NCBI RefSeq assembly: GCF_036924745.1
Contig: NZ_JAZHSD010000001.1
Location: 3,038,001 to 3,102,000, forward strand
DNA from: Bradyrhizobium sp. AZCC 1693
Lineage (GTDB): Bacteria > Pseudomonadota > Alphaproteobacteria > Rhizobiales > Xanthobacteraceae
Direction of reading: 5' to 3'
DNA length: 64,000 nucleotides
Shown: positions 7,309-63,174 of the stretch, piece after piece
Layout of the letters: each line of letters begins with the position of its first letter
Position numbering within the stretch: position 1 is the stretch's first letter
Position numbers and translations under genes: made by a program
The notes under the pieces: generated by a model
What the model saw: the letters and a program-made list of their open reading frames with translations, nothing else
Database searches by the model: none
What the model was told of the DNA's origin: nothing

Positions 7309-7614
7309 ATGGCCGATACCACCGTCACGCCAAAAACCAAGGTCAAGACCAAGACCGAGCGGCCGCGCCTGCACAAGGTCATCCTGATCAATGACGACTA
7401 CACGCCGCGCGAATTCGTCGTCACGGTGCTGAAGGCCGAATTCCGCATGACCGAGGATCAGGCGCACAAGGTGATGATCACGGCGCATCGCCGCGGCGTC
7501 TGCGTCGTCGCCGTGTTCACCAAGGACGTCGCCGAGACCAAGGCGACCCGCGCCACCGACGCCGGCCGCGCCAAGGGTTATCCGCTGCTGTTCACGACCG
7601 AGCCGGAAGAGTAG
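7309..7614 (+). CDS. clpS: ATP-dependent Clp protease adaptor ClpS
   Basis: ClpS binds N-degron substrates and hands them to ClpA of the ClpAP protease in the cytoplasm. The 101-residue protein has a flexible Lys/Thr-rich N-terminal tail, then the core HKVILINDDYTPREFVVTVL, in which the paired Asp (NDD) contact the N-terminal amino acid, and MITAHRRGVCVVAVFTKDVA. Length and motifs are typical. No clpA lies in the window; alphaproteobacteria often have two ClpS paralogues, and which this is cannot be told from the sequence. Confidence 0.96.
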   Translation: MADTTVTPKTKVKTKTERPRLHKVILINDDYTPREFVVTVLKAEFRMTEDQAHKVMITAHRRGVCVVAVFTKDVAETKATRATDAGRAKGYPLLFTTEPEE

Positions 7615-7631
7615 CAGTTCGCACGCGCCGA

Positions 7632-8816: not shown

Positions 8817-8931
8817 GGCGCCGGTATTTGCCGCGCAACTGCAGCGCGCGTCAAGCGGCTCCCACGACAGCCGGCGTGACGCGACGACGGAGCTGCGCTA
8901 GCTTTACGGTGCGACCAGAGGAAACGTCACA

Positions 8932-10626
8932 GTGTACGACACCATCATCGTCGGCGGGGGATCAGCGGGCTCGGTCATGGCCCACAGGCTCTCGGCCAGG
9001 AGCGCCAACAAAGTCCTGCTATGCGAAGCGGGCCAGGACACGCCGCCCGGCAACGAGCCGCCCGAGATTCGCGACAGTTATTCGGGGCTGGCCTATTTCG
9101 ATCCGCGCTTCCACTGGACCGAACTCAAGGTCACGACCCAAATCGTCAGCCACAACAACCCCGATGAGAGCCGCCCGCCGTTGCGCAAGTATGAACAAGC
9201 GCGCGTGCTGGGTGGCGGATCCTCCATCAACGGCCAGATGGCCAACCGCGGCGCGCCGACCGATTACGCGGAGTGGGAGGCCCGCGGTGCCACGGGCTGG
9301 AACTGGAACGACGTGCTGCCCTACTTCAAGAAGGTCGAGCGCGATCTCGATTTCGACGGGCCATTCCACGGTAACGACGGCCGTATCCCCGTCCGCCGCA
9401 TTCCGCACCAGCATTGGACCGGGCACTCGCAAGCCATGGGTGAGGCCTGCAAGCTCGCCGGCTACGCGTTCCTGCCCGACCAGAACGGCGAGTTCACGGA
9501 CGGCTACTTCCCGGTGACGCACTCCAATCAGGATGAGCAACGCGTCTCGGCCGCGATGGGCTATCTCGATCGCGAAACACGCAAGCGCGCCAACCTGACG
9601 ATCTCGACCAACACAGAGGTCAAGGAGCTGCTGTTCGAGGGCACGCAATGCGTCGGCGTGAAGGCGCTGGTTAATGGCCGCGAACAGCAGTTCCGCGGTC
9701 GCGAGGTCATCCTTTCCTGCGGAGCGATCCATTCGCCGGCGCATCTGTTGCGCGCCGGCATCGGACCGGTCGGGCATCTGAAGGAGATGGGCATTCCGGT
9801 CCTGATGGGCCTCGCGGGCGTCGGCCAGGGTCTGATGGACCATCCCTCGATCGCGCTGTCATCTTTTGTCCGCCGTGGCGCACGCATGAACGCGCACACC
9901 CGACGCCACATCCAGATGGGGCTGCGCTACTCCTCAGGCCTTCCGGGCACGCCGGCCGGCGACATGTTCGTCGCCGTCCTCACCAAATCGGCCTGGCATT
10001 CGGTCGGCGAGCAGATCGCCTCGCTGCTCACCTTCGTCAACAAGACCTACTCGGAGACCGGTCAGGTCAAACTCGCCTCGCGCGACCCGCGGAAAGAGCC
10101 GATTGTCGAGTTCAACCTGCTGTCCGACAAACGCGATCTCGACCGCCTGATGAGCGGCTTTCGCAAGATGGCGGCGCTGCAGATGAGTGCGCCGCTCAAG
10201 GCCGTCACCGACAAGCCATTCCCGGCCTCGTATTCCGACCGCGTGCGCAAGATTGGCGTGGTCAACACAAAGAACAAGGTGCTCACCGCCATTGCCGCCG
10301 TCCTGATGGACGGGCCGGCGCCGCTGCGCCACGCCATGATCGACAACTTCATCGTCGAAGGTTTTACGTTCGAGCAGGTCATGCGCGACGACGAGGCGCT
10401 CGAAGCCTTCGTGCGCAAGGCGGCGATCGGCGTGTGGCATGCCTCCTGCTCATGCCGGATGGGCCGGGCGGACGATCCGATGGCGGTTGTCGACACCCAA
10501 GGCCGGGTCAAGGGCGTGCAGGGATTGCGCGTGGTCGACGCTTCGATCTTCCCGGTGGTGCCATGCGCCAACACCAATTTCCCGGTCCTGATGACGGCGG
10601 AAAAGATCGCAGACGCCATGCAGTGA
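8932..10626 (+). CDS. GMC-family FAD oxidoreductase (choline dehydrogenase-like)
   Basis: Flavoprotein oxidising an alcohol substrate. The 564-residue protein starts with the ADP-binding motif IIVGGGSAGSVMAHRLSA, has the GMC signature ARVLGGGSSINGQMANRG, a second signature SCGAIHSPAHLLRAGIGP, and near the C-terminus the active-site His in GVWHASCSCRMG and Asn in PCANTNFPVLMTAEKIADAM. Start is GTG at 8932 preceded by AGAGGA. It is divergent from the cyclase gene. Substrate is unknown; choline, alkan-1-ols or polyethylene-glycol-like alcohols are all possible for this family. Confidence 0.93.
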   Translation: MYDTIIVGGGSAGSVMAHRLSARSANKVLLCEAGQDTPPGNEPPEIRDSYSGLAYFDPRFHWTELKVTTQIVSHNNPDESRPPLRKYEQARVLGGGSSINGQMANRGAPTDYAEWEARGATGWNWNDVLPYFKKVERDLDFDGPFHGNDGRIPVRRIPHQHWTGHSQAMGEACKLAGYAFLPDQNGEFTDGYFPVTHSNQDEQRVSAAMGYLDRETRKRANLTISTNTEVKELLFEGTQCVGVKALVNGREQQFRGREVILSCGAIHSPAHLLRAGIGPVGHLKEMGIPVLMGLAGVGQGLMDHPSIALSSFVRRGARMNAHTRRHIQMGLRYSSGLPGTPAGDMFVAVLTKSAWHSVGEQIASLLTFVNKTYSETGQVKLASRDPRKEPIVEFNLLSDKRDLDRLMSGFRKMAALQMSAPLKAVTDKPFPASYSDRVRKIGVVNTKNKVLTAIAAVLMDGPAPLRHAMIDNFIVEGFTFEQVMRDDEALEAFVRKAAIGVWHASCSCRMGRADDPMAVVDTQGRVKGVQGLRVVDASIFPVVPCANTNFPVLMTAEKIADAMQ

Positions 10627-41624: not shown

Positions 41625-42608
41625 TCATTTCCCTGTTCCAGCCGCAGCAAGAATGGGTGCCCAGCGTGCGATCTCGGACCGAACAAAGCGATCGAATGCT
41701 GCCGGGTTGCGTTCGTCCTTTGCCGGTATCGAGCCACCGAGTTGGGCAATCCGCTCGCGCACAACGTCCTCATCGAGCGCACCGTCGAGCGCATCGGAAA
41801 GCCTGGCGATGATTTCGGGCGAAATGCCTTTCGGCGCAAACAGTCCTGCCCAAACGCTCATCTCGTAGCTGATGCCCGCCTCCCTCGCGGTCGGAACATC
41901 AGGCAACGTTTCAAGACGTTTCGCGGCAGAGACGGCGAAGGCCTTGACCGAGCCGGCCAAAACCGACTCCGCCACGCTGACCGACTGCTCGCACATGAAA
42001 TCGACGTGGCCGCCAACCAGATCGTTCAATGCCGGGCCCGAACCGCGATAGGCGACCAGCGCCGGCTTGGCGCCGATTTCCGCGGTGAACAAGAGACACG
42101 CCATATGCGAGGACGCGCCGATGCCGCCATGGGCCTGCTTCACCGCGTCACCCCGTTGCCGGAGGCTTGCGACGAACTCCTTCAAGTCCTTTGCCGGGAA
42201 ATCCTTCCGCGCGATGATGACTGCCGGGGAATGGGCGGTGAAGCCGATCGGCACGAAGTCGGCAACGGGATCGTATTTGAGGTTCGGCGTCAGCACCGGC
42301 GCCGCGACATGCGGGCCCATTGCCGCTGCAAGCAGGGTATAGCCGTCGGGTACGGCAGCCGCTACGCGGGCGCTGCCGACGGTGCCGCCGGCGCCGCTGA
42401 CATTCTCGATGATGATGGATTGCCCGAGGATCTTCGACATCTGGTTGGTGACGATGCGGGCAACAACGTCGCTGGCGCCGCCGGGAGGGAACGGCACCAC
42501 CACCGTGATCGCCCTGGAGGGATAGTCCTGCGCGGCTACCTCCCCGGCGATGCTGACCAATAGCGTCGCAACCACGAAAACTTTCCAGACACACGTGCCA
42601 GGCTTCAT
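41625..42608 (-). CDS. Bug-family tripartite tricarboxylate transporter binding protein
   Basis: A 327-residue precursor: signal peptide VWKVFVVATLLVSIAGEVAA, then DYPSRAITVVVPFPPGGASD, NVSGAGGTVGSARVAAAVPD, LVAYRGSGPALNDLVGGHV and WAGLFAPKGISPEIIARL. ATG at 42608 has GGGAGC upstream. No membrane partners lie nearby. It is downstream of a Gfo/Idh/MocA gene (32 bases), so the two are probably one operon, suggesting uptake of a carboxylated substrate for that oxidoreductase. Confidence 0.93.
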   Translation of the reverse strand: MKPGTCVWKVFVVATLLVSIAGEVAAQDYPSRAITVVVPFPPGGASDVVARIVTNQMSKILGQSIIIENVSGAGGTVGSARVAAAVPDGYTLLAAAMGPHVAAPVLTPNLKYDPVADFVPIGFTAHSPAVIIARKDFPAKDLKEFVASLRQRGDAVKQAHGGIGASSHMACLLFTAEIGAKPALVAYRGSGPALNDLVGGHVDFMCEQSVSVAESVLAGSVKAFAVSAAKRLETLPDVPTAREAGISYEMSVWAGLFAPKGISPEIIARLSDALDGALDEDVVRERIAQLGGSIPAKDERNPAAFDRFVRSEIARWAPILAAAGTGK

Positions 42609-42640
42609 AACGCGCGCTCCCATCCTTAGCTGCTGCGCCG

Positions 42641-43657
42641 TCACATTTTTCCGTCACCGTTCAGTATCTGGGCAATCTCGACCGGGCGTCCCTCGCGCGC
42701 CGAGAGAATGCCGGCGCGTACCACGGCGAGCGATCGCGTCGCTTCCTCACCCCCGACTTCGTGCTGGCGCTGCCCGCGCACCGCCGCGGCAAACTCCTCG
42801 AGCTCCTCGACCAGAGTGTCGTTATTCGCGCATGGCACCGCAACCGGCTGGCTTTCACCGCGCTTGAGCAGCCGGAGTCCATTGTGCAAATCGTAATAGG
42901 CCGTCATGTCCTTGCCGTAGACATTCATCAGGTAGTACTCGGACGCCGAGGCGTAGCTTGCGTTCAGCGTCGAAAGCGCACCGTTCTCATGCTGCAGGAT
43001 CAGGCTCGCGACGTCGGGATTGTCGCCGGGCAGCACCAGTTGCGCCGACTGTGCCCGTACCGCATGGATTGGCCCGATCAGGTAGGCGAGCACGTCGATG
43101 TAGTGGATCCCGATCTGCAACATCACGCCGCCCGGCATGCCCGCGGCCTGGTAGCGCCAGGAGGTGAGATCGACCTTGCCGAGACGATCGCGGCTGATGT
43201 TCGCCTCGGCGTTGACGAGCTTGCCGAACCGGCCGGCGTCGATCTGCTGCCTGACATAGCGGAAATGGCTCTCGCGCCGCCGCTGATAGCCGAGCGCCAG
43301 CACCACGCCGGCCTTGCGGCAGGCCTCGGTGATGGCGCGGCCGTCGGAGATGCTGTTGGCGATCGGCTTGTCGAGAAAGACGTGCTTGCCGGCGGCTGCG
43401 GCAGCGCAGGTCGTCGCCAGATGCACATCGTTCGGCGTGGTGTTGATGATCGCCTCGATCTCGGTATCGGCTAGCAGCGCCTCGTAACTCGCGGCCGGCC
43501 GGCAGCGGTACTTTGCCGCGAAATTGTTGCGCTTTTCCTCGGACCGGGTGTAGCAGCCTCGGATCTCGAGCTTGCCCGAGCGCTGGATGGCATCCGCCAG
43601 AACATCGGACCACCATCCCATCCCGATACAAGCCACGCGAAGCGGATCGGCGCTCAT
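42641..43657 (-). CDS. Gfo/Idh/MocA-family oxidoreductase
   Basis: NAD(P)-dependent sugar or cyclic-acid dehydrogenase family. The 338-residue protein begins with a Rossmann motif (RVACIGMGWWSDVLADAI), has HVFLDKPIANSISDG with the conserved Lys, and SWRYQAAGMPGGVMLQIGIHYIDVLAYLIG containing the usual catalytic His/Asp region. ATG at 43657 follows GAGAGGG; a GTG one codon earlier is in frame. The following Bug-type gene is close. A phthalate-type dehydrogenation or sugar oxidation is possible; substrate unknown. Confidence 0.91.
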   Translation of the reverse strand: MSADPLRVACIGMGWWSDVLADAIQRSGKLEIRGCYTRSEEKRNNFAAKYRCRPAASYEALLADTEIEAIINTTPNDVHLATTCAAAAAGKHVFLDKPIANSISDGRAITEACRKAGVVLALGYQRRRESHFRYVRQQIDAGRFGKLVNAEANISRDRLGKVDLTSWRYQAAGMPGGVMLQIGIHYIDVLAYLIGPIHAVRAQSAQLVLPGDNPDVASLILQHENGALSTLNASYASASEYYLMNVYGKDMTAYYDLHNGLRLLKRGESQPVAVPCANNDTLVEELEEFAAAVRGQRQHEVGGEEATRSLAVVRAGILSAREGRPVEIAQILNGDGKM

Positions 43658-43874
43658 CACTTTGCCCTCTCCAAGAACTTTGGCCTCCCCCGATCCGGCG
43701 GCGAGCGCAAGTCCGAGCGCTACCCCGATCGCATCGGCTCACATCGAAGAAATTGCACGCAACTTCCGGCTGCGATTTTGCACCCCGCCCGTCGGCAAGG
43801 CAACCTACCGAAACTATGCGGCGCGAACATGGAGGGGTTATCGGGATCCACCGCTGGTTTCCCGATCGAACGCG

Positions 43875-46273: not shown

Positions 46274-49200
46274 CTACTCGGCTGCCTGCGCCACCGGCTG
46301 GCCGATCGCAGCTTCCAGGCGCGCGCATTCTCCGCGGAACTTCGCGACACTGGCTTCCTTGACGTGACCGTAGCCGCGAACGAGTTCCGCGGACTTCGCC
46401 AGCGCCACCAGACGCGGCCAGTCATGCGGCTTCGCCTTGTCGAGATGACGGAAAATCATCGCGGAATATTCGCCGGGCAATGCCCGTTCCATCCGGCGTT
46501 CGGCCGTGTAGCCGAACGGATCGAACGATGTTCCGCGCAGGAACTTGAACCGCGTCAGGAGTTCGAAGGCGCGAAAAATCCAGGAACCGAACTCGCGCTT
46601 GCGCAGATGTCCGGTCACCTTGTCGCGCGAAGCCAGCAGCGGCGGCGCGAGGCTGACTTTCACGCCCGGGTTGCCGTCGAACTGTTCCTTCAACACTTTT
46701 GCGAACTCGCCGTCGGAATAGAGCCGGGCGACTTCGTATTCGTCCTTGTAGGCCATCAGCTTGAACAGGCCCTTTGCAAAGGCCTCGGTGAGGTCATGCG
46801 AGCCGGGCGAGCCCTTGCCTTCGGCCGCGCGAACGCGCTCGACCTCGGCGAGGTAGCGCTTCGAATAGGCCTCATTCTGATAGTCCGTCAGGAACCTGGC
46901 GCGGAAAGCGATGCTCTCGTCGAGCGTCCGCTTCGCAGGCTGAGCGCCCGAACTCTTGAAACGCGCGGCGCTGACGACGCGCTGCAGGTCGTGCGCGGCG
47001 AGCCGGCCCCAGGAGAACGCCAGCCTGTTCATCTCGATCGCCGCACCATTGAGGTCGATCGCCTTCATGATCGCCTCCAGCGAAAGGGGAATCGCGCCGC
47101 GCTGGAACGCGAAGCCGAGCATGAAGGCGTTGGTGGCGATGCTGTCGCCCATCAGCGCCGTGGCGAGCCCGGTGGCATCGAGGATGTCGAGATCGGAGGC
47201 GCTGACGGCCCCGTTGAGCGACTCCCGCATCGTCCCCGCCTCGAAGTCGATGTCGGGGTTGATGACGAAGCTCGCGGTCGGCAGCAGGTCAGCATTGACG
47301 ATCGCCCGCGTCACGCCGCGCTCGGCCCGGCTCAGCGCCGGAATGCCGGTGGCGACCACGATGTCGCAGCCGAGGATGAGGTTGGCGCCGCCGGGCGCGA
47401 TGCGGACGGTTGCGAGATCATCCGCCTCGGGCGCGATGCGGACATGGCTCATGACGGCGCCGTTCTTCTGCGATAACCCTGTGAAGTCCAGCGTCGAGCA
47501 CGCCTTGCCGTCGACATGGGCGGCCATGCCGAGCAGCGCGCCGATGGTGATGACGCCGGTGCCGCCGATCCCGGTGACGAGGATGTTGTAGGCGCCATCG
47601 AGCGCAGGCGCGGCCGGGACAGGCAGATCGGCGAACAGCGCGGATGGATCGGCCGCGGTACGATCGGCCTTCCTCAGCCTGGCGCCATGCACGGTCACAA
47701 AGCTCGGGCAAAAGCCCTCGATGCAGGAAAAGTCCTTGTTGCAGTTCGATTGGTCGATCCGCCGCTTGCGGCCGAACTCGGTCTCCAGCGGCTGCACCGA
47801 GACGCAGTTGGAAACCGACGAACAGTCGCCACAGCCTTCGCAGACGCGTTCGTTGATGAAAACGCGCTTCGGCGGATCCGGATAGAGCCCGCGCTTGCGG
47901 CGGCGCCGCTTCTCCGCCGCGCAGGTCTGGTCGTAGATCAGGACGGTGAGGCCCTTGACCTCGCGCAGCTCCTTCTGCACCGCGTCGAGTTCGCGGCGGT
48001 GATGAACAGTCGCGCCTGATGGGAAGTAATTGCTGGGATATTTTTCGGGATCGTCGGAGACGATGACGAGGTGCCTGGCGCCTTCCGCCGAAACCTGGTG
48101 CGCGATCTGCGACACCGTCAGCCCGCCCTCCGCCGGCTGGCCGCCGGTCATCGCCACCGCATCATTATAAAGGATCTTGTAGGTGATGTTGACGCCGGAG
48201 GCGGCTGCTGCGCGGATCGCCAGCAGGCCGGAATGGGTGTAGGTGCCGTCGCCCAGATTCTGGAACACGTGTGGTTCGCTGGTGAACGGCGCCTGCCCGA
48301 TCCAGGTGACGCCCTCCGCGCCCATATGCGAGATCGTCTGGGTGCGGCGGTTCGGCACCGACAGCGCCATGCCGTGACAGCCGATGCCGGCCATGGCGCG
48401 GCTGCCCTCGGGGATCTTGGTCGAAGTGTTGTGGGGACAGCCCGAACAGAAATACGGCGTGCGCTGCAGCTTTGCCGCGCCGCCGCCATCCGCCGGCCGG
48501 TCGAACGCTTCGAGCTTTGCCAGACGCTGCTCCAGCGCCGGGCTGCGATGGCCAAGCTTGCGCAGCCGCGCCACGACCGCCGCCGCCACCATGGTCGGCG
48601 TTATTTCGCCTTCGCTCGGCAGCAGCGGCGCACCGCTCTCGTCGCGCTTGCCGACCACCGACGGTCGCCTCGACGCATCGACATTATAGAGAATGCGCAG
48701 TAGCTGGTCCTCGATGAACCCGCGCTTCTCCTCGACGACGAGCACATCCTGCAAGCCTTCCGCGAACGCCTTTGCGCCGGACTCCTCCAGCGGCCAGGTC
48801 AGCGCGACCTTGTAGATGCGAAGTCCCAGCGCCTGCGCCTCGGCATCGGTAATGCCGAGATCGGCCAGCGCCTGCCGGAGATCGAGATAGGCCTTGCCGG
48901 TCGCCATGATGCCGAGCCGCGCCGGCTTCGAATCCAGCACGATGCGGTCGAAGCGATTGACGCGCGCGAATGCCGCGACCGCCTGCATCTTCGGACCGTG
49001 CAAGCGCCGTTCCTGTTCCATCGGCGCATCAGGCCAGCGGATCGAAAGCCCGCCCGGCGGCATTTCGAAATCCGTTGGAAGAACGATCCTGATGCGATCG
49101 GGATCGCTGACGATCGAGGCCGAGCTTTCAACGGTTTCGGAAATCGCCTTGAAGCCGACCCAGCAACTTGAGTAGCGCGACAGCGCAAATCCCAAAATGC

Positions 49201-49747
49201 CGAGATCGAGATAATCCTGCAGCGTCGCCGGGTTGACCACCGGCATCAATGCTGCGGCAAACACCTGCTCGCTCTGATGGGCGAGCGTCGAGGACTGGCA
49301 GCCATGGTCGTCGCCGGCCAGCGCGATCACGCCACCGTTCGGCGAGGTGCCGGCCGAGTTGGCATGCTTGAGCGCGTCCATCGAGCGGTCGACGCCCGGG
49401 CCCTTGCCATACCAGATGCCGAATACGCCATCGACCTTGGCGCCGGGGAACATGCCGACCTGCTGGCTGCCCCACACGGCGGTGGCCGCAAGATCCTCGT
49501 TGAGACCGGGCGCGAACTCGATGTCATGCTGCTTGAGGAAGGTTTTCGCACGCCACAGCGCGTGGTCGTACATGCCGAGCGGCGAGCCGCGGTATCCGGA
49601 GATGAAGCCGGCGGTGTTGAGCCCCGCGGCCCGGTCGCGTTCGCGCTGCAACATGGGAAGTCGGACCAGCGCCTGCGTACCGGAGAGGAATATGCGCTTC
49701 ACATCCAGCCGGTACTTGTCGTCCAGCCCAACTTCCATCAACGCCAT
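46274..49747 (-). CDS. Fused indolepyruvate:ferredoxin oxidoreductase family protein
   Basis: Oxidatively decarboxylates aromatic 2-keto acids to acyl-CoA, using TPP and Fe-S clusters. At 1157 residues it is the fused alpha+beta form found in aerobic proteobacteria. In order: N-terminal keto-acid domain; YFCSGCPHNTS (about 430); TPP domain GDGTYTHSGLLAIRAAAASG (about 500) with YNDAVAMTGG; a 4Fe-4S segment CEGCGDCSSVSNC ... CNKDFSCIEGFCPSF (about 640); the gamma domain VTGIGGTGVITIGALLGMA (about 727) with GLSQKNGAVMSHVR; and a C-terminal domain usual in these fusions. It probably serves phenylalanine/tyrosine/tryptophan degradation, feeding electrons to a ferredoxin not encoded here. Confidence 0.94.
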   Translation of the reverse strand: MALMEVGLDDKYRLDVKRIFLSGTQALVRLPMLQRERDRAAGLNTAGFISGYRGSPLGMYDHALWRAKTFLKQHDIEFAPGLNEDLAATAVWGSQQVGMFPGAKVDGVFGIWYGKGPGVDRSMDALKHANSAGTSPNGGVIALAGDDHGCQSSTLAHQSEQVFAAALMPVVNPATLQDYLDLGILGFALSRYSSCWVGFKAISETVESSASIVSDPDRIRIVLPTDFEMPPGGLSIRWPDAPMEQERRLHGPKMQAVAAFARVNRFDRIVLDSKPARLGIMATGKAYLDLRQALADLGITDAEAQALGLRIYKVALTWPLEESGAKAFAEGLQDVLVVEEKRGFIEDQLLRILYNVDASRRPSVVGKRDESGAPLLPSEGEITPTMVAAAVVARLRKLGHRSPALEQRLAKLEAFDRPADGGGAAKLQRTPYFCSGCPHNTSTKIPEGSRAMAGIGCHGMALSVPNRRTQTISHMGAEGVTWIGQAPFTSEPHVFQNLGDGTYTHSGLLAIRAAAASGVNITYKILYNDAVAMTGGQPAEGGLTVSQIAHQVSAEGARHLVIVSDDPEKYPSNYFPSGATVHHRRELDAVQKELREVKGLTVLIYDQTCAAEKRRRRKRGLYPDPPKRVFINERVCEGCGDCSSVSNCVSVQPLETEFGRKRRIDQSNCNKDFSCIEGFCPSFVTVHGARLRKADRTAADPSALFADLPVPAAPALDGAYNILVTGIGGTGVITIGALLGMAAHVDGKACSTLDFTGLSQKNGAVMSHVRIAPEADDLATVRIAPGGANLILGCDIVVATGIPALSRAERGVTRAIVNADLLPTASFVINPDIDFEAGTMRESLNGAVSASDLDILDATGLATALMGDSIATNAFMLGFAFQRGAIPLSLEAIMKAIDLNGAAIEMNRLAFSWGRLAAHDLQRVVSAARFKSSGAQPAKRTLDESIAFRARFLTDYQNEAYSKRYLAEVERVRAAEGKGSPGSHDLTEAFAKGLFKLMAYKDEYEVARLYSDGEFAKVLKEQFDGNPGVKVSLAPPLLASRDKVTGHLRKREFGSWIFRAFELLTRFKFLRGTSFDPFGYTAERRMERALPGEYSAMIFRHLDKAKPHDWPRLVALAKSAELVRGYGHVKEASVAKFRGECARLEAAIGQPVAQAAE

Positions 49748-54196: not shown

Positions 54197-54580
54197 TCAC
54201 ACCGGCTTCTCGTCATCCGTCACCGGCGAGGTGATCACCAGAAACACCAGATCGACCAACCCCGAATTCGAGATCGCGTGTTCGACACCCGGCGGCAGGA
54301 AGATGAAGTCGTGCTTGCGCACCACGTGGTTCTTGCCGGCGATTTCCATCAGCCCTTCGCCTTCGAGCACGTGATAGATCTGCTCCTGCACCAGATGCTT
54401 GTGGCGCGCGACATGTGCCATCGGCTGGTACATCGAGATCCGGTAGTCGATGTGACGGGAGCCCGCGGTCTCCGGCATGACCAGCGGTTTTGACAGCGCG
54501 CCGCCGAAATGATTGGGGAATTCGCGCCACGGCACTTCGGCGATGTTGCGAATGAAGGCGCCGTTATCTTCTGAAGCCAT
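54197..54580 (-). CDS. Single-domain cupin protein
   Basis: A 127-residue cupin: motif 1 in VARHKHLVQEQIYHVLEGEG with His, His, Glu metal ligands, motif 2 in LPPGVEHAISNSG. Small cupins include dioxygenases, isomerases and sugar-binding proteins. It is the last gene of a three-gene operon (TPP enzyme, SDR, cupin), 17 bases after the SDR stop, so a role in the same pathway (metal-dependent ring or side-chain chemistry, or quality control) is likely. ATG at 54580 with GGAGG upstream. Confidence 0.9.
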   Translation of the reverse strand: MASEDNGAFIRNIAEVPWREFPNHFGGALSKPLVMPETAGSRHIDYRISMYQPMAHVARHKHLVQEQIYHVLEGEGLMEIAGKNHVVRKHDFIFLPPGVEHAISNSGLVDLVFLVITSPVTDDEKPV

Positions 54581-54597
54581 GATGGCCTCCTCTGTCG

Positions 54598-55302
54598 TCA
54601 GATCACCAGCGCCCCGCCATCGATATAGACGATCGATCCGGTCGCAAAGCCGTTCGCCATGAAACCAAGGATCTGCCGCGCGATATCTTCGCCAATGCCG
54701 ACGCGGCCGACCGGCAGCGACGCCGCAGCTTTCGCCAGCATGTCGCGCCGCGCCTCTTCCGGCATCGCGGCGCGAATCGGGGTGTCGATGATTCCGGGCG
54801 AGACCGCGTTGACGCGCACCGGCGCCAGTTCGAGCGCTAGCGCCCGGGCCAACGATTCCAGCGCGCCGTTGGCGGCGCTGACGATCGCCGAGTTCGGGCG
54901 CGGACGAACGCTGAGGAAACCCGACACCAGAGTGAGCGATCCGCCGGGGCGAATTTCGGCCCGCTGCGCGACGCGCCAGGCACCCCAGAATTTCCCCTCC
55001 ATCGTTCCCCGCACATCCTCCATCGCCACCGTCTTGAACGGACCGGTGCGAAGCTGCGCCGCCGTCACCACGACATGATCGACCGGGCCGCAGCGCTGGA
55101 ACAGCTTTGCCACGCTGTCATCGCTGGTAACATCGGTTGGAATCGCGATCGCGTTCAGCTTCTCCGCCGCCTTGTCGAGCCGCTCGACATTGCGCGACGC
55201 AAGGATGATTTCGGCGCCCTCGCGCTTCGCCATCTCGGCGGTCGCAAGACCGATGCCGGAGGAACCACCGACGACGACGACTTTCTTGCCTGCAAGCAAC
55301 AT
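54598..55302 (-). CDS. Atypical SDR-family oxidoreductase lacking catalytic Tyr/Lys
   Basis: The 234-residue protein has the SDR cofactor motif VVVGGSSGIGLATAEMAKRE, TDVTSDDSVAKLF and LTLVSGFLSVRP (catalytic-Ser region), and the usual C-terminal INTPIRAAMPEE-like segment (here IDTPIRAAMPEEARRDMLAK). At the position of the YxxxK pair the sequence is NSAIVSAANGALESLARAL, so both Tyr and Lys seem replaced. It may be catalytically altered or non-catalytic. Second gene of the TPP/SDR/cupin operon; 20 bases after the TPP enzyme stop. ATG at 55302 preceded by GAGGG. Confidence 0.88.
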   Translation of the reverse strand: MLLAGKKVVVVGGSSGIGLATAEMAKREGAEIILASRNVERLDKAAEKLNAIAIPTDVTSDDSVAKLFQRCGPVDHVVVTAAQLRTGPFKTVAMEDVRGTMEGKFWGAWRVAQRAEIRPGGSLTLVSGFLSVRPRPNSAIVSAANGALESLARALALELAPVRVNAVSPGIIDTPIRAAMPEEARRDMLAKAAASLPVGRVGIGEDIARQILGFMANGFATGSIVYIDGGALVI

Positions 55303-55322
55303 GGGATTTCCCTCGCGTGAGA

Positions 55323-57122
55323 TCAGGCGGGCTGATAGCGCGTGCCGATGCCGGCCTTGCTCTGGCCGAGCCCGGGCAATTCCCATACCCCCGCGCCGAC
55401 CGGATTGATGTCGGCCGCGATATCGACATCGATCAGAAAGGGTTTGTTGGCGGCGATGCCCTTGCGAATGGCCTCGCCGAGATCGCCGGCGCGATCAACG
55501 CGCACGCCCTCGACGCCGCAGGAGCGCGCCATCGCGGCGAAATCCGGATTGTAGCGCTCGCCGGTGGCGGGATCGTGGAAATCGGTCGCCAGCTCACGGC
55601 CGCCGAGATAGCCGCGCTGCAAACCGCGGATCGAGGCATAGGCGTAATTGTTCCAGACCACCCACACGACAGGCAGGTTATATTCGACCGCCGTGCCCAG
55701 CACGTTGGCATGCATGAAGAACGCTCCGTCGCCGCACACCGAAACGCAGGGCCGGTCGGGCGCTGCAAACTTCGCGCCCATCACGCCGGCGACGCCAAAG
55801 CCCATCGGGCCAAACCCCATCGAGCCGATCAGCGAATCCGGCCGCCGCGGCTTGCAGAAGCCGAGCAGCCAGTTGTGGTGCACGCCGATGTCGCTGACGA
55901 GGATCGCATCATCAGGCAGCGCCTTATCGATTTCGAGCGCGGCGCGCTGCGGATTGATCGGCGTGGTGTCGTCGGAAAATCCGGGGGCGACGAACTCGTC
56001 CCATTCCTTGCGATAGGTATCGATCTGCGCCAGCCATTTCTTGCGCGCGTCCGCTTTCTTCGAAAGATCGGCGCGGCGATCGAGTTCGGCATGCACCTGC
56101 CGCAGGAAGGTGCGCACGTCGGCCATCAGGCCGAGCGCGACCGGATAATTGCGGCCGATCTCTTCGGGATCGATATCGACATGGATCAGCCGCGTCGGCG
56201 GGATGGTGAAGGAATAGCCGGGAATCCACGAACTCGAGGTGCGGTCGTCGAACCGCATCCCCAACGCGAGCAGCACGTCCGCCTGACGCGTCGCGTGGTT
56301 GGCCTGGTAGTGGCCGGCGCGCGCGACGAGACCCAGCGCCAGCGGATGGTTGCAATCGATCGCGCCCAAGCCGCTTGCCGAGGCCGCGACCGGAATCTGC
56401 AGCCGGTCGGCGAGCCTCAAGAGTTCCTCCGCCGCGCCGCCATAGCGTACGCCCTGCCCGACAATGATCGTCGGCCGATCGGCCGCGAGCAGCATGTCGA
56501 CGGCTTTCACCACGCCATCAGGATCGGCGCCGCAGCGGCTCGATATGTTGGCGTTCCAGGCCTGCGCATTCGGCGCCTCCTCGGCCGCCGATTCCATGAA
56601 CACGTCAAAAGGCACGTCGAGCACGACGGGTCCGGGCCGGCCGCTCGTCATGGTCTTCCAGGCCTGCCGCACGGCCAGCGGCACCATCTCGCCGCGCGTC
56701 GGCTGGAACACCTTCTTGCACATTGTGCGCACGGTGGAGGGAAAATCGGCCTGATAGTGCCGGTACATTTCCTGGAAGGCGCCGCGGTTGAACTGGCTGG
56801 TCGGCACGTTGCCGGTCACCGCCAGGAACGGCACGGAGTCGAGGAAGGCGTTGGCGAGCGAGATCGGCAGATTCGCCGAGCCCGGCCCGCAGGACGTAAA
56901 CGTCGCCGTCGGCCGCCCCGACACGCGGTAGTACACATCGGCCATGAATCCGGCGACGCTCTCGTGATGCACCGAGATGGTCTTGATGTCGGATGAGCGC
57001 TCGTACAGCGCGTCGATGAACTGGATGTTGCCATGGCCGCACAGGCCGAACACCTGCGGCACCTTCTCCTGGATCAGATAGTCGACGATGACCTGGGCGC
57101 CGTTGAGCATGTTACGCGACAT
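55323..57122 (-). CDS. Acetolactate-synthase-like TPP-dependent enzyme
   Basis: A 599-residue TPP enzyme of the acetolactate synthase/benzoylformate decarboxylase superfamily. Catalytic Glu in ISVHHESVAGFMADVYYR; TPP motif CGDGAFFMHANVLGTAVEYN followed by NNYAYASIRG; middle domain with RPTIIVGQGVRYGG and LLALGMRFDDRTSS. It is not IlvB because the local partners differ and no IlvN is present. It could decarboxylate or carboligate a 2-keto acid. First gene of the TPP/SDR/cupin operon and divergent from an IclR regulator (209 bases apart), a strong hint of co-regulation. ATG at 57122. Confidence 0.92.
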   Translation of the reverse strand: MSRNMLNGAQVIVDYLIQEKVPQVFGLCGHGNIQFIDALYERSSDIKTISVHHESVAGFMADVYYRVSGRPTATFTSCGPGSANLPISLANAFLDSVPFLAVTGNVPTSQFNRGAFQEMYRHYQADFPSTVRTMCKKVFQPTRGEMVPLAVRQAWKTMTSGRPGPVVLDVPFDVFMESAAEEAPNAQAWNANISSRCGADPDGVVKAVDMLLAADRPTIIVGQGVRYGGAAEELLRLADRLQIPVAASASGLGAIDCNHPLALGLVARAGHYQANHATRQADVLLALGMRFDDRTSSSWIPGYSFTIPPTRLIHVDIDPEEIGRNYPVALGLMADVRTFLRQVHAELDRRADLSKKADARKKWLAQIDTYRKEWDEFVAPGFSDDTTPINPQRAALEIDKALPDDAILVSDIGVHHNWLLGFCKPRRPDSLIGSMGFGPMGFGVAGVMGAKFAAPDRPCVSVCGDGAFFMHANVLGTAVEYNLPVVWVVWNNYAYASIRGLQRGYLGGRELATDFHDPATGERYNPDFAAMARSCGVEGVRVDRAGDLGEAIRKGIAANKPFLIDVDIAADINPVGAGVWELPGLGQSKAGIGTRYQPA

Positions 57123-57331
57123 CGATTTAACTCTCTCCCTGAGCTCAACGAATTCGCCTCCGCGTCTTGCTTGCGCGGCCGGCAACGGGCCCGAACCTAT
57201 TTCTCATAATACTGTACGTCAATTGCTATTGTGGTATGGTGCAGATTGCGGCCTCAGCCGAGACGCGGCGCTGTTGCCGGGCGAGGACGGCCTGATAGAG
57301 TTCGCCTCGCCCATCCTGGAGAGTTGATTCC

Positions 57332-58240
57332 GTGAACCCGCGCACCAAGCCGAAGACGAGCGACAAGCAGGCAACGCCGCGCAAGGTTTCGATCGGCAAG
57401 GTCTCGATCGCAAGGCTGGTGCCATCAAGCGAACCCAACATCGACGACGAGGCCGAGGAGCGCGCGCGCGGCGGCGTGCAGTCGCTGGGCCGCGCCTTTT
57501 CGATCCTCGAGGAAGTCGCGCGACACCGCGAGGGCATTGGATTAGCGGACCTCAGCAAGCTGGTAGGCCTGCATAATTCCACCACCTTTCACCTCGCCAA
57601 GACGCTGGTCTCGCTCGGCTATCTCCGGCAGGAGCGCGATTCAAAACGCTATCGCGTCGGCCGGCCGCTGTTTGCACTCGCAGCCAGCGCGCTCGACGAA
57701 ATCGAGATGGTGAATCTGGCGACGCCGGTGCTGGAAGACCTGTCGCGCGAAACCGGCGAAAGCGGCCATTTTGCCGTGCGCATGGGCGACGCCGTGGTCG
57801 TGATCGCCCGCACCAGCGGGCTAGGGGCGTTCCAGTTGACCGACCGCGTCGGCGTGGTGCGGCCGGCGCATTGCACCGCGCTCGGCAAGATCATGCTGGC
57901 CTCGCTGCGCCCCGACCAGTTGAAGCGCTTTCTCGAACGGGTCGAACTGAATCCGTCGACGAAAAAATCGATTACGGACCCCGCCGTACTCTTGCGCGAG
58001 ATCGCCGAAATCCGCCGCAGCGCGATCGCCTTCGACGACGGCGAATTCAATGCGGAAGTCCGCTGCGTCGCGGTGCCGGTCTATAACTTCACCGGCGAAG
58101 TGATCGGCGCGCTCGGCATTTCCGGCCCGATCTGGCGCATGACGGACCAAGTGCTGCAAAGCCGCGCCAAGCTGGTGCAATCGGCCGCCGCCCGGCTGTC
58201 AGCCGAATTCGGCGCGCGGGATCTGGCAAAGTCCTCCTGA
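57332..58240 (+). CDS. IclR-family transcriptional regulator
   Basis: A 302-residue regulator: an N-terminal extension of about 50 residues, winged-helix DNA-binding domain (LADLSKLVGLHNSTTFHLAK, LVSLGYLRQE), then the IclR effector-binding domain with VRMGDAVVVIARTSGLGAF, HCTALGKIMLASL and VAVPVYNFTGEVIGALGIS. GTG start at 57332. Divergent from the TPP/SDR/cupin operon and upstream of an ABC-type uptake system, so it probably controls both in response to a small organic acid. Such regulators act as repressors or activators. Confidence 0.93.
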   Translation: MNPRTKPKTSDKQATPRKVSIGKVSIARLVPSSEPNIDDEAEERARGGVQSLGRAFSILEEVARHREGIGLADLSKLVGLHNSTTFHLAKTLVSLGYLRQERDSKRYRVGRPLFALAASALDEIEMVNLATPVLEDLSRETGESGHFAVRMGDAVVVIARTSGLGAFQLTDRVGVVRPAHCTALGKIMLASLRPDQLKRFLERVELNPSTKKSITDPAVLLREIAEIRRSAIAFDDGEFNAEVRCVAVPVYNFTGEVIGALGISGPIWRMTDQVLQSRAKLVQSAAARLSAEFGARDLAKSS

Positions 58241-58418
58241 TCCGATCGGGCCAAACTCCGCTCCCAACGGCTTGAACGCGGCTGCGACGCATTTGGCGTT
58301 GACAGGAGCCACTGCGTCCGGAAATATCCTACAACAATAAAAGAACGTCTCTCACATTGTCGCATAAGCGGGAACGGAAGAGAGAACGTCGCGACGTATC
58401 CCGGGGAGGAGAGCAGTG

Positions 58419-59663
58419 ATGAGCCGCTACAGCCGACGTACCCTGTTGAAGGCCGGCGCCGCCTTTGCCGGCGCCTCCGCGATCGGATCTCCTTCCATCC
58501 TCAGCGCCCAGGCCGCGCGAATAAAGATCGGCCATCTGGTGCCGCTGACCGGCTTCCTCGGCGCGATCGGCAGCTACGCCCAGCTCGGGGTGAAGATGGC
58601 GGCCGAAGAGATCAACGCGTCCGGCGGCATCATGGGCAAGCAGATCGACCTGATGTCGGAAGACTCGGTTAATCCCGCCACCGCGTCCACCAAGGCGCAG
58701 CGCATGATCGAGCAGGACGGCGCGGTATTGTTGTTTGGCGAAATCTCCTCCGCCTCGTCGCTGACCATCATGCAGGTCGCCGAGCGCAACAAGAAGGTGT
58801 TCTTCTCCACCGGTGCGCGCTCCGACGCGCTGCGCGGCAAGGATTGCAACCGCTACGCCTTCCACTGCGACATTCCCAATACCGTGATGGTCAACGCCGT
58901 CGGCACCGCGCTCAATCAGAAGGGCATGGTGAAGGGCAAGAAGTTCGTCACCCTGACCGCGGACTATATTTTCGGCCACGACCTCCTAAAGGCCGCCAAA
59001 GCCTTTTTCAGCGCCAACGACGCCACCCTGATCGGCGACGAGCTGGTTGCAACCGACGTCAACGACTTCAGCCCGTATCTGTTAAAAGTCCGGCAGGCCA
59101 AGCCCGATGTCGTGTGCTGCAACCTCGCCGGCAACCAGGTGACCAACCTCGTCAAGCAATATGCCGAGTTCGGCTTCGCCTACCCGCTCGTCGGCTTCAA
59201 CCTCAACACCGGCGACGCCTGGGCGATGGGCGAAGGCAATCTCAGCGGCACCTGGCCGACGGTCTGGTATCACACGCTCGACAATCCGGCCTCGAAGGCT
59301 TTTGTCGAGGCCTTCACCAGGAAATACGGCAAGCCGCCGGAGAACCACGCCTGGATCGAATACATCACGCTGAAAATGATCGCGCAGGCGATCACCGAGA
59401 CCAAGTCGACCGAGAGCGATGCGCTGATCGGCTATTTCGAGAAGCAGACGCAGTTCGACATCATGAAGGGCCGCAAGGCCTATTTCCGTTCCTGGGACCA
59501 TCAGCTCGTGCAGGAGGCCTATCCGTTCACCGTGAAGCCGAAAAACGAGATGAAGGACAAGTGGGACATGCTCGTGCTCGGCGAAGCCGTGCCGACCGCA
59601 GGCGCCGAACTTGAATCGATCTACCCGACGAAGACGCAAAATCCCTGCAACATGAAGGCATAG
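58419..59663 (+). CDS. Branched-chain-type ABC transporter substrate-binding protein
   Basis: A 414-residue precursor with a twin-arginine-like signal (SRYSRRTLLKAGAAFAGASA). The mature part starts RIKIGHLVPLTGFLGAIGSY and has NPATASTKAQRMIEQDGAVL, VKGKKFVTLTADYIFGHDLL and DKWDMLVLGEAVPT: LivK/HAAT family. GGGGAGGAG precedes ATG 58419 (GTG at 58416 alternative). It lies downstream of the IclR gene and is followed by permease/ATPase genes after a terminator-like hairpin. Binds an unknown, probably organic-acid or aromatic, ligand. Confidence 0.93.
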   Translation: MSRYSRRTLLKAGAAFAGASAIGSPSILSAQAARIKIGHLVPLTGFLGAIGSYAQLGVKMAAEEINASGGIMGKQIDLMSEDSVNPATASTKAQRMIEQDGAVLLFGEISSASSLTIMQVAERNKKVFFSTGARSDALRGKDCNRYAFHCDIPNTVMVNAVGTALNQKGMVKGKKFVTLTADYIFGHDLLKAAKAFFSANDATLIGDELVATDVNDFSPYLLKVRQAKPDVVCCNLAGNQVTNLVKQYAEFGFAYPLVGFNLNTGDAWAMGEGNLSGTWPTVWYHTLDNPASKAFVEAFTRKYGKPPENHAWIEYITLKMIAQAITETKSTESDALIGYFEKQTQFDIMKGRKAYFRSWDHQLVQEAYPFTVKPKNEMKDKWDMLVLGEAVPTAGAELESIYPTKTQNPCNMKA

Positions 59664-59697
59664 AAGCCCGAAACGGGCGTCGGGCACACTGGCGTTG

Positions 59698-59735
59698 CGG
59701 CGCCGGCACAGATCAGCCGGCGCCGTCTCTTTTTC
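59698..59735 (+). terminator. Hairpin between binding-protein and permease genes
   Basis: Perfect 10-base stem CGGCGCCGGC / GCCGGCGCCG (59698-59707, 59716-59725) then TCTCTTTTTC. It could partly terminate transcription so that the binding protein is made in excess over the permease. Confidence 0.7.
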
Positions 59736-59764
59736 AAGGCGCGTTTAGAGGTCGCGGATCGCAC

Positions 59765-60640
59765 ATGCAGTTCGGATTTCTACTGGAGCAGGTTGTGAAT
59801 GGCCTGGTGCTCGGAGGCTATTACCTCCTGATTGCGCTCGGCCTGTCGCTGATCTTCAGCGTCGGCGGCATCGTCAATCTCGCGCATGGCGCGTTCTATG
59901 CGCTCGGCGCCTACATCTCCGTCGAGATCACGAAATATCTCGGCTTCGGTTCGGCGATGGTGCTGTCGCCGGTTGCGGTCGCGTTGCTCGGCATTCTCTT
60001 CGAGCGCTTCATTTTGCGCCGCTTCTACGACGCCGATCCGATCCTGAGCCTCTTGGTGACGTTCGGCCTCGCCATGGTCACCGAGCAGGCGATCCGCATT
60101 ATCTGGGGCGCGCCGCCGGTATCGGCCGCGATCCCGCAATCCTTTCGCGGCTCGGTCTTCCTCGGCGACTTCCTGTTCTCGCGCTATCGCTTGCTGATCC
60201 TCGCCGTCGTCGCCGCGGTCCTCGTCGGCGTCTGGCTGCTCTTGCACAAGACCTCGTTCGGCCGCGTGGTGCGCGCCGGCATCCAGCGGCCGGATATGGT
60301 GGCTGCGCTGGGCATCCGGCTACAGCCCTACATGACCGCGATCGTCATGCTCGGCGTCGGCATGGCGGCGCTTGGCGGCGCGTTCTTTGCGCCGATCACG
60401 ATCGTGCATCCCGCCATGGGCGCCGAGATCATCACGGTCGCCTTTGTCGTCGTCGTCATCGGCGGCCTCGGCAGCTTTTGGGGCGTGGTGCTGGCGGCGA
60501 TGCTGGTTGGCGTTGTCCGCGGCATCACCATCCATTTCGCGCCGGCTGCCGGCGAAGCATCGATCTACGTGCTGATGTTCCTGGTGCTGCTGGTGCGCCC
60601 GCGCGGGCTCTTGGGCGAACGGATCGAGAAGTTCGAATGA
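59765..60640 (+). CDS. Branched-chain-type ABC permease (LivH)
   Basis: A 291-residue inner-membrane permease with about eight helices. MQFGFLLEQVVNGLVLGGYY and ALGLSLIFSVGGIVNLAHGA are LivH hallmarks. The C-terminus (GLGSFWGVVLAAMLVGVVRG) is also typical. Its stop overlaps the next start (ATGA at 60637-60640), coupling it to the LivM-G-F fusion. Works with the fused permease/ATPase and the binding protein upstream. Confidence 0.93.
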   Translation: MQFGFLLEQVVNGLVLGGYYLLIALGLSLIFSVGGIVNLAHGAFYALGAYISVEITKYLGFGSAMVLSPVAVALLGILFERFILRRFYDADPILSLLVTFGLAMVTEQAIRIIWGAPPVSAAIPQSFRGSVFLGDFLFSRYRLLILAVVAAVLVGVWLLLHKTSFGRVVRAGIQRPDMVAALGIRLQPYMTAIVMLGVGMAALGGAFFAPITIVHPAMGAEIITVAFVVVVIGGLGSFWGVVLAAMLVGVVRGITIHFAPAAGEASIYVLMFLVLLVRPRGLLGERIEKFE

Positions 60641-63174
60641 CAAGCACGTTCCTCAACAAATATCGCCCGCTGCAATCAGCCACGCTCGCCGTCATCGCGC
60701 TGCCGTTCGGCCTCTATCTGCTCGGGCTGTCGCTCAACACCGGCACCATGGTGGTGGCGCTCGCCATTGCCGCGATGGGGCTCAACCTCTGCATCGGCTA
60801 TACCGGCCTGGTCTCGTTCGGCCACGGCGCGTGGTTCGGCATCGGCGCCTACGCGGCGGGGCTGATCCAGCGCAACTGGTTCAACAACGATATCTTCCTG
60901 CCGCTGCTGCTGGCGGCCGTTGTCGTCGCCGTTATCGCAACCTTTGTCGGCTTCGTCATCCTGCGCCGGCGCGGCGTCTATTTCTCGCTGCTGACGCTGG
61001 CGCTGTCGGCGCTGGCCTACACCATCGCCTTCCGCTGGACCGCGGTGACTGGCGGCGAGGACGGCCTCGGCGGCTTGAAGCGCGGCAGCATCGGGCCTTT
61101 CAGCCTCGACAATGCGCTCAACTATTACATCGTCGTCTCGGTGCTCTGCCTCGGCGTGCTCTATCTGCTGCTGCGGCTTGTGCGCTCGCCGTTCGGCCAT
61201 GTGCTGATGGCGATCCGCGAGAACCAGTTGCGCGCCACGTTCCAGGGCTATCCGGTCGAGCGCTACAAGCTCGGCGTCTTCGTGATCTCGGCCATCGTGA
61301 CCGGCTTTGCCGGCGGGCTGATCGGTTTCCAGAACTACCTCGTTTCCGCCGAAGCGGTCTCGGTGCCGTTCTCCGGCGAACTGCTCGCGATCGTCGTGAT
61401 CGGCGGCATGCGCAGCATGCTGGGGCCGGCGATCGGCGCGCTGTTCTTCATCCTGTTCCGCGAGTTGTTTTCGATCTGGACGTCGAACTGGCTGCTGTGG
61501 TTCGGCCTCGTCTTCGTCGCCTTCGTGCTGTACTCGCCGGGCGGCCTCGTCGGCATCTGGGCGACGCTTGCAAAACGCTGGTGGCCGCCGCCGGAAGAAG
61601 CCGCTGCCATGAGCAAGCGCAAGATTTACGAAGGCCTGCCGCTGCCGGCCTTCCTGCTGCCGAAAGGACTCGACGGCATCGTGCTTGACGTGCGCGGCGT
61701 CTCGAAGACGTTTGGCGGCATTCGCGCGGTGACCGATGCGAGCCTCACCGTCGGCGCGGGCGAAATTCACGCCTTGATCGGGCCGAACGGCGCGGGAAAG
61801 ACCACGCTGTTCAATCTGGTCTCCGGCCTCTACCCGACCGACGGCGGCACCATCAAGCTGAACGGCCGCGAGATCCAGGGCGTGCCGTCGGAGGCGATCT
61901 GCCATCAGGGGCTGGCCCGCTCGTTCCAGATCACCAATCTGTTCAAGGGGCTGTCGATCTACGAAAACCTGCGGCTGTCGCTGCAGGCGCAGAACGCCGG
62001 GCGCTTCAACCTCTGGCGCGATATCGATCACTACAAGGATATCCACGCCGAGACGGCGGAGCTTATAAAATTCCTCGGCCTCGAAGGCATCGAGACCATC
62101 GAGGGCGGCGAACTGTCCTATGGCGGGCAGCGGCTGGTCGATCTCGGCATCGCGCTCGGCTCCAAGCCGCAGGTGCTGCTGCTGGACGAGCCGCTCGCCG
62201 GTCTTGCCGCCGCCGAGCGCGAGCGCGTCTCGAACCTCGTCAAGAACATCGCCGCCAATATTCCGGTCCTGATCGTCGAGCACGACATCGACCGCGTGCT
62301 CGGCTTCTCCCGCACCGTCACCGTGATGAACCAGGGCGAGGTGCTGATGACCGGCTCGCCCGAGGCCGTGCGCGCCGACCGCAGGGTGCAGGAGATCTAT
62401 ACCGGCACCGGCGTACCCGAAGTCGAGCATGTCAGCAGCGATTACGCGAAGGCGAGCGCCACGCCGATCCTGCGCTTCGAGCGCGTCAACACCTTCTACG
62501 GCAAGAGCCACATCCTGCACGACGCCACGCTCGACGTGCGCGAGGGCGAGATCGTCGCCCTGCTTGGCCGCAACGGCGCCGGCAAGTCGACGCTACTGAA
62601 GACGCTTGCGGGCCTCGTGCCGCTGTCGTCGGGCACGATCAAATATTCAGGCAGCGATATCTCCCGCCTGCCCGCGCCGGACATCGCGCGCGCCGGCATC
62701 GGCTATGTGCCGCAGGGCCGCGGCCTGTTCGCCGGCATGACGGTCAGGGAAAATCTCTCGCTCGGTCGTCTCGCCCGCAAGACCGACGGCAGCAACGGCG
62801 TGGTATGGGACGAGGCGAAGATCCTCGAATACTTCCCGCGCCTGCGCGAGCGCATGGACGTCGCGGCGGATTATCTCTCCGGCGGCGAGCAGCAGATGGT
62901 GGCGGTGGCGCGCGCGATGTCGGGCAACGTCAAACTCCTGCTGCTCGACGAACCCTTCGAGGGACTGGCGCCGGCCGTGATCCTCGACCTGTTCAAGGTG
63001 TTCGACCGGCTGCGGCAGCACATCTCGATCGTGATCGTCGAACACAACCTCGATCTCGTGCTGGCGCTCGCCGACCGCGTGTTCGCGCTGGAGCGCGGCG
63101 CAGTGTTCCATGAGGGGCCGGCGCAACCGCTGCTGACCGATCTCGAATACCGCAAGAAGATCTTGTGGCTATGA
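60637..63174 (+). CDS. ABC transporter permease fused to two ATPases (LivM-LivG-LivF)
   Basis: One 845-residue polypeptide: residues about 1-320 are a LivM permease (AAMGLNLCIGYTGLVSFGHG, ITGFAGG-like helices), 350-595 a LivG ATPase (Walker A GPNGAGKTT ~382, signature LSYGGQ ~493, Walker B LLLDEPLAG ~514) and 610-845 a LivF ATPase (Walker A GRNGAGKST ~644, signature LSGGEQQM ~747, Walker B LLLLDEPFEG ~768). All catalytic motifs look intact. LivM-LivG fusions are common in rhizobia; adding LivF is rarer. An internal ATG (61609) with GGAAGAAG upstream could give free ATPases. Confidence 0.93.
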   Translation: MTSTFLNKYRPLQSATLAVIALPFGLYLLGLSLNTGTMVVALAIAAMGLNLCIGYTGLVSFGHGAWFGIGAYAAGLIQRNWFNNDIFLPLLLAAVVVAVIATFVGFVILRRRGVYFSLLTLALSALAYTIAFRWTAVTGGEDGLGGLKRGSIGPFSLDNALNYYIVVSVLCLGVLYLLLRLVRSPFGHVLMAIRENQLRATFQGYPVERYKLGVFVISAIVTGFAGGLIGFQNYLVSAEAVSVPFSGELLAIVVIGGMRSMLGPAIGALFFILFRELFSIWTSNWLLWFGLVFVAFVLYSPGGLVGIWATLAKRWWPPPEEAAAMSKRKIYEGLPLPAFLLPKGLDGIVLDVRGVSKTFGGIRAVTDASLTVGAGEIHALIGPNGAGKTTLFNLVSGLYPTDGGTIKLNGREIQGVPSEAICHQGLARSFQITNLFKGLSIYENLRLSLQAQNAGRFNLWRDIDHYKDIHAETAELIKFLGLEGIETIEGGELSYGGQRLVDLGIALGSKPQVLLLDEPLAGLAAAERERVSNLVKNIAANIPVLIVEHDIDRVLGFSRTVTVMNQGEVLMTGSPEAVRADRRVQEIYTGTGVPEVEHVSSDYAKASATPILRFERVNTFYGKSHILHDATLDVREGEIVALLGRNGAGKSTLLKTLAGLVPLSSGTIKYSGSDISRLPAPDIARAGIGYVPQGRGLFAGMTVRENLSLGRLARKTDGSNGVVWDEAKILEYFPRLRERMDVAADYLSGGEQQMVAVARAMSGNVKLLLLDEPFEGLAPAVILDLFKVFDRLRQHISIVIVEHNLDLVLALADRVFALERGAVFHEGPAQPLLTDLEYRKKILWL

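Follow-up and report, generated by a model that had tools for sequence, protein, structure and literature searches.

What is the function of a small bacterial gene set in which a thiamine diphosphate (ThDP)-dependent enzyme, a protein of the short-chain dehydrogenase/reductase (SDR) fold and a cupin are encoded beside an IclR-family regulator and an importer? The question is raised by positions 54197–63174 of a 64,000-nucleotide stretch (the window) of Bradyrhizobium sp. AZCC 1693, whose genome is a single contig of 7.6 Mb. Reading frames and Pfam/NCBIfam matches place seven genes there: three enzyme-like genes on the minus strand, a divergent IclR gene, and three importer genes on the plus strand. 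Our preferred answer, with a probability of about 0.55, is that they form a dedicated uptake-and-breakdown module, which would import a hydroxylated or oxo acid, cleave it at a C–C bond with the ThDP enzyme and use the cupin, as a metal enzyme, for a further step.

The minus-strand genes encode a ThDP-dependent enzyme of acetolactate synthase fold (55323–57122; 599 residues; Pfam TPP_N/M/C) with a GHGN motif that includes His30 and with Glu54; an SDR-fold protein that has lost the catalytic YxxxK (54598–55302; 234 residues; NCBIfam PRK07041.1, 288.3 bits, family cut-off 257); and a single-domain metal-binding cupin (54197–54580; 127 residues; Pfam Cupin_2, 48 bits, cut-off 27.2). A preliminary description of the locus had these genes spaced by 20 bases (SDR–ThDP) and 17 bases (cupin–SDR) and transcribed away from the IclR gene, and the reading frames confirm it.

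Is this a unit or a chance neighbourhood? We searched 149 related genomes for the ThDP gene, 89 of them from the genus; genus genomes and records are mutually related, and the presence/absence and synteny counts below are not independent trials or events. The ThDP gene (at least 87% identity) is in 39 of the 89 (in G045 and G073 only parts of it were found) and absent from 50, and the cupin is in exactly the same 39, so that their presence/absence is identical. Likewise, the SDR gene agrees with the ThDP gene in all 60 genus genomes searched for both (31 with, 29 without), and the binding protein of the importer (at least 73%) is in 38 of the 39 carriers, the exception being G033, where the ThDP gene sits on a 5.6-kb contig. 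Three genus genomes free of the cluster (G006, G032 and G074) hold a binding-protein relative of 54–56% identity.

Gene order tells the same. The cupin, SDR, ThDP and IclR genes are present in all 32 genus loci fetched, with the whole importer in 31 (in the remaining locus, L062, the importer is missing near a contig end) and the IclR gene moved in one, L068. Each member of the unit lies no more than 8 kb from the ThDP gene in 44 or 45 of 45 genus records (some of these represent one contig listed twice), whereas the next four genes past the cupin are that close in only 17, 10, 20 and 7. Because gene order is kept while the outer neighbours vary, and because the cupin, ThDP and binding-protein genes co-occur, it is well supported that the seven genes are one inherited catabolic-type unit in the genus; on synteny and shared presence/absence we reject a chance neighbourhood. 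Conservation of the neighbourhood among relatives was also a test by which the preliminary description proposed to be judged, and it withstood it.

We then asked what kind of enzyme the ThDP protein is. Glu54, G464-D465-G466 and N491-N492 are invariant in 35 aligned rows, giving it the catalytic Glu and the GDG...NN motif of ThDP enzymes, but it reaches none of the 25 best-listed NCBIfam cut-offs. A plain acetolactate synthase is rejected, as it scores 399 bits against a cut-off of 538 with the large-subunit model TIGR00118, and so is a true IolD (TIGR04377, 246.6 bits, cut-off 715; the best other match from its own genome scores 197.9). In a tree of 42 proteins, the window protein falls in one supported group with relatives of 70–87% identity, and those of 48–55% form other groups beside it; the family is apart from IolD and from the other ThDP enzymes of the same genome, in a tree for which the program flags long branches and whose deep joins are unsure. 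The GHGN motif is found in 25 of 29 family rows, including the window protein (the remaining four have GHGA, in two, GHGT and GHGI), and near the N-terminus in all four IolD rows, but in none of the nine paralogs from the same genome that could be aligned, out of 13 other TPP_N matches there.

Comparison with known ThDP enzymes gives several partial likenesses. IolD shares with the window enzyme the GHGN motif and the catalytic Glu, but the two lie in separate, fully supported clades, and the window cluster is without an inositol-type gene set. Near some ThDP relatives there are also sugar-phosphate-isomerase-like, Gfo/Idh/MocA and cupin genes; an inositol-like pathway is a lead only, in which those genes of TIM-barrel, Gfo/Idh/MocA and cupin type that lie close to ThDP relatives would be candidates for relatives of IolE, IolG and IolB, given the roles that we presume for these three. 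Cyclohexane-1,2-dione hydrolase (CDH) is 27–28% identical; it has a His28/Asn484 pair, and His30 of the window enzyme lies opposite its position 28 as judged only from the alignment range. Acetolactate synthases are the nearest solved folds and share an RFDDR segment, but their rows carry GG where the window enzyme has GHGN. The top PDB sequence match is BbmA (8x3x and 8xod; 30–31% identity), a ThDP-dependent HKA synthase according to the PDB title, our sole source for its function, which has GG-P at the GHGN position. Fold searches confirmed the folds but did not separate the reactions, and there was no IolD among the matches listed for the ThDP enzyme.

The cupin carries the three His and one Glu of a metal cupin (HxH..E..H), ligands that are kept in 44 of 45 matches of at least 75% identity and in 33 of 34 at 40–75%. 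Its predicted model (predicted local distance difference test score, pLDDT, 93.3) is nearest in fold to DddK, TM1459 and TM1287, then KdgF. The single-domain cupins DddK, TM1459 and KdgF are only 17–25% identical to it, and it differs from them in features of its own alignment, an invariant W18 and S30-K31 and near-invariant QEQ residues. That the SDR is altered, as the preliminary description had remarked, is confirmed among its close matches: V/I and N replace the catalytic Tyr and Lys in all 45 segments (at least 75% identity) that cover both positions. The best PDB match, 3uce, is likewise without Tyr and Lys at those columns in the printed alignment. Judged by these residues, the SDR-like protein may not be an active classical dehydrogenase.

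How far do these genes travel together? In the 148 genomes searched for the cupin (E ≤ 1e-25), all 41 carriers also have a ThDP relative of at least 48% identity; two of them are beyond the genus, with ThDP relatives of 48–51%. G127 has a ThDP relative (53%) without a window-type cupin. From a scan of a species-genome collection we took the best 80 of at least 144 confirmed ThDP relatives: 12 window-type loci from Bradyrhizobium, 29 others at 70–87% identity and 39 at 48–55%. Many loci of the last set are cut by contig ends, and their neighbours were counted as tblastn matches: the cupin is near 25 of the 39, an aldehyde dehydrogenase near 23, a KstD-like flavin adenine dinucleotide (FAD) protein near 12 and a TcuA-like protein near nine, with the binding protein and the fused importer protein (both at least 60%) near nine each, and all nine binding-protein loci have the cupin. 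Clustering of called genes gave lower counts (cupin 17, aldehyde dehydrogenase 20). Here and below, the labels KstD-like, IlvD/Edd-like, HpcH-like and DUF849-like are presumptive names wherever a family assignment is not given with them.

Annotated plasmid regions, of which we inspected six out of 139 matched records, agree: a ThDP gene (annotated in two pieces in L156) and a cupin gene are present in all six; five have a gene annotated as aldehyde dehydrogenase, and five have one annotated as sugar phosphate isomerase/epimerase. Some add a type II 3-dehydroquinate dehydratase, Gfo/Idh/MocA proteins and FAD oxidoreductases, and the transporters differ from region to region, being of Liv, tripartite tricarboxylate or polar amino-acid type. 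The pairing of ThDP enzyme and cupin recurs, together with importers and oxidoreductases, in a second family branch. In the genus records, the 8 kb around the ThDP gene also include an aldehyde dehydrogenase (3/45), a TcuA-like (4/45), a KstD-like (2/45) and a TIM-barrel gene (2/45), the source loci of the queries being counted. On these counts, the two ThDP groups share accessory gene families. The window strain has a short version of the cluster, to which some relatives add aldehyde dehydrogenase, FAD dehydrogenase and isomerase-like genes; the best matches to these extra genes in the window genome are 37% (aldehyde dehydrogenase), 45% (KstD-like) and 33% (TcuA-like), and a search without a positive control gave no match to the TIM-barrel gene. 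For one TIM-barrel protein from these loci, no NCBIfam model matched at E 1e-10.

Much larger clusters surround some of the 48–55% relatives (L031, L033, L111, L116 and L151–L156), with NAD-epimerase, FAD and isomerase-like genes, differing importer types and, in two, an AroQ-type dehydratase; they are possibly an undescribed pathway in their own right. One of them, an Aminobacter plasmid cluster (L151), has a second ThDP-enzyme gene (7538–9340), which clusters with L141 in a different family branch. Bradyrhizobium sp. STM 3809 (L148) has a 49% relative within a cluster of the larger kind, and Bradyrhizobium therefore contains both ThDP branches.

The plus-strand genes begin with the IclR-family regulator (57332–58240; 302 residues), a clear member by its two domains (Pfam HTH_IclR, 52.5 bits, cut-off 22; IclR_C, 149.7 bits, cut-off 24) and below the cut-off of the BhcR model (172.5 of 350 bits). 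In the region that separates it from the ThDP gene, an alignment of 39 distinct sequences shows a conserved block (57198–57236), a candidate operator or promoter, and 41 distinct sequences show a stretch with conserved columns (58298–58366) upstream of the binding-protein gene. A 16-column motif common to both intergenic regions beats 60 of 60 column shuffles, but shuffles do as well or better in three of 60 at 12 columns and in five of 60 at 20, and for this reason the motif is only a hint of a shared IclR operator. No sigma-70 consensus site was found in 57000–58500.

The importer comprises a periplasmic substrate-binding protein (58419–59663, with an alternative GTG start possible at 58416; 414 residues; Peripla_BP_6, 251.6 bits; a twin-arginine-like signal read by eye), a LivH/UrtB-type permease (59765–60640; 291 residues; BPD_transp_2, 108.5 bits) and a fused LivM-LivG-LivF protein, a permease with two ATPases, identified by NCBIfam only (60637–63174; 845 residues), whose frame overlaps livH by ATGA. 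The preliminary description had a complete branched-chain-type importer: a Liv-type importer is indeed present, but LivM, LivG and LivF are one 845-residue frame rather than separate proteins. That frame is a single unbroken match over 90% of its length in 43 of the 44 genus records with a match, and in the lone exception, L075, the match starts at the contig end. The fused protein scores above the NCBIfam cut-offs for UrtD and UrtE, yet UrtA (122.2 of 492.75 bits) and UrtB (179.7 of 250.3 bits) fall short, because of which we reject a urea transporter, and the automatic name, to judge by these scores, is likely wrong. Three records, L185 (8575–13352), L186 and L187, hold a second copy of the binding protein (55%) accompanied by LivH-like and fused LivMGF-like frames; its neighbours in L186 and L187 are genes named by eye as hydroxyacyl-dehydrogenase-like and DUF849-like.

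Put together as an uptake-and-breakdown module, the parts would act as follows. The binding protein would capture a hydroxylated or oxo carboxylic acid, and the IclR protein, sensing the substrate or an intermediate, would control importer and divergent enzyme operon alike. The ThDP enzyme would cleave a C–C bond next to a carbonyl, in a 2-oxo acid, an acyloin or a vicinal diketone, possibly by hydrolysis as in IolD and CDH, since its GHGN motif includes His30. The metal cupin would perform an adjoining isomerisation, elimination or hydration, and the SDR-like protein, having lost the classical catalytic pair, may have a different chemistry or serve as a binding or structural partner.

The main rival to hydrolytic cleavage is decarboxylation followed by generic aldehyde oxidation: the ThDP enzyme would be a 2-oxo acid decarboxylase of the mandelate-pathway type, a neighbouring or generic aldehyde dehydrogenase would oxidise the aldehyde, and the cupin would act in an upstream step. 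We regard this as possible, if doubtful. It would account for the aldehyde dehydrogenase near 23 of the 39 loci of the 48–55% group and in three of the 45 genus records, a protein whose best listed NCBIfam match is lactaldehyde dehydrogenase (442 of 650 bits). Yet this aldehyde dehydrogenase family was not seen within 8 kb in the other 42 genus records, the best match in the window's own genome is the 37% one, and the tree sets the enzyme apart from its own benzoylformate-decarboxylase-like paralogs. Together with His30, the 42 records and the 37% match lead us to favour, modestly, cleavage in the manner of IolD and CDH. Less likely still is an acetolactate-synthase-like carboligase, joining an activated aldehyde to a carbonyl partner, as suggested by the closest solved structures (acetolactate synthases and BbmA) and by the RFDDR segment, read from alignments: the TIGR00118 score and the GHGN in place of GG speak against it, and the genome already has an acetolactate synthase (PRK09107, 1183.6 bits, cut-off 974). 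We consider it very unlikely that the importer merely lies beside the enzyme operon as an ordinary transporter of amino acids or urea; the Liv/Urt-type architecture and the UrtD and UrtE scores of the fused protein would fit, but not the UrtA and UrtB scores, the co-inheritance of the binding protein in 38 of 39 genomes, or the nine 48–55% loci where a related importer accompanies the cupin and ThDP genes.

Several observations also weigh against the module of uptake, ThDP cleavage and cupin step that we prefer. Outside Bradyrhizobium, the 70–87% set has the cupin in only one of 29 loci (L081, with IclR and the importer) and the aldehyde dehydrogenase in only two, and shows other recurrent genes, named by eye: IlvD/Edd-like (3/29), HpcH-like (3/29) and amidohydrolase-like (4/29). 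Even within the genus a universal need for all parts is called into question by G050, where the cupin is interrupted, and by G017, where the SDR is split over two frames, although assembly error is possible in both. The SDR is also the least conserved member outside the genus (at least 50% identity in 1/29 of the 70–87% set and 0/39 of the 48–55% set).

No published description of the gene set was found in the open-licence PubMed Central literature, and no named pathway found there fits it, as the preliminary description had also held. Its overall interpretation, the import and processing of one small organic acid, is supported in part: importer, regulator and enzyme-like genes do form one set, the alteration of the SDR is confirmed and a named pathway is not at hand. 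By record titles, the ThDP-enzyme family, part of which is linked with the metal cupin, occurs in alpha-, beta- and gammaproteobacteria and in metagenome-assembled genomes titled Nitrospinae, Tectomicrobia and Desulfobacterales. A bolder and quite speculative proposal makes the ThDP enzyme the founder of a new C–C hydrolase family that stands parallel to IolD and CDH and works with a metal cupin and an SDR of remodelled catalytic site; soil and marine bacteria would then have a widespread and undescribed route for breaking down cyclic or branched hydroxy-oxo acids. Automatic names such as acetolactate synthase and urea transporter ATPases would mislead here, and the cluster, through its regulator, its binding protein and its few enzymes, gives direct means of finding the substrate and the reaction.

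Elsewhere in the window, a minus-strand gene (46274–49747) encodes a 1157-residue protein with TPP_enzyme_C, POR and DUF6537 domains, which we take to resemble a fused 2-oxoacid (indolepyruvate) ferredoxin oxidoreductase. Also on the minus strand, a TctC receptor gene and a Gfo/Idh/MocA oxidoreductase gene overlap by four bases (41625–43660); both gene types are also found in the clusters of distant ThDP relatives.

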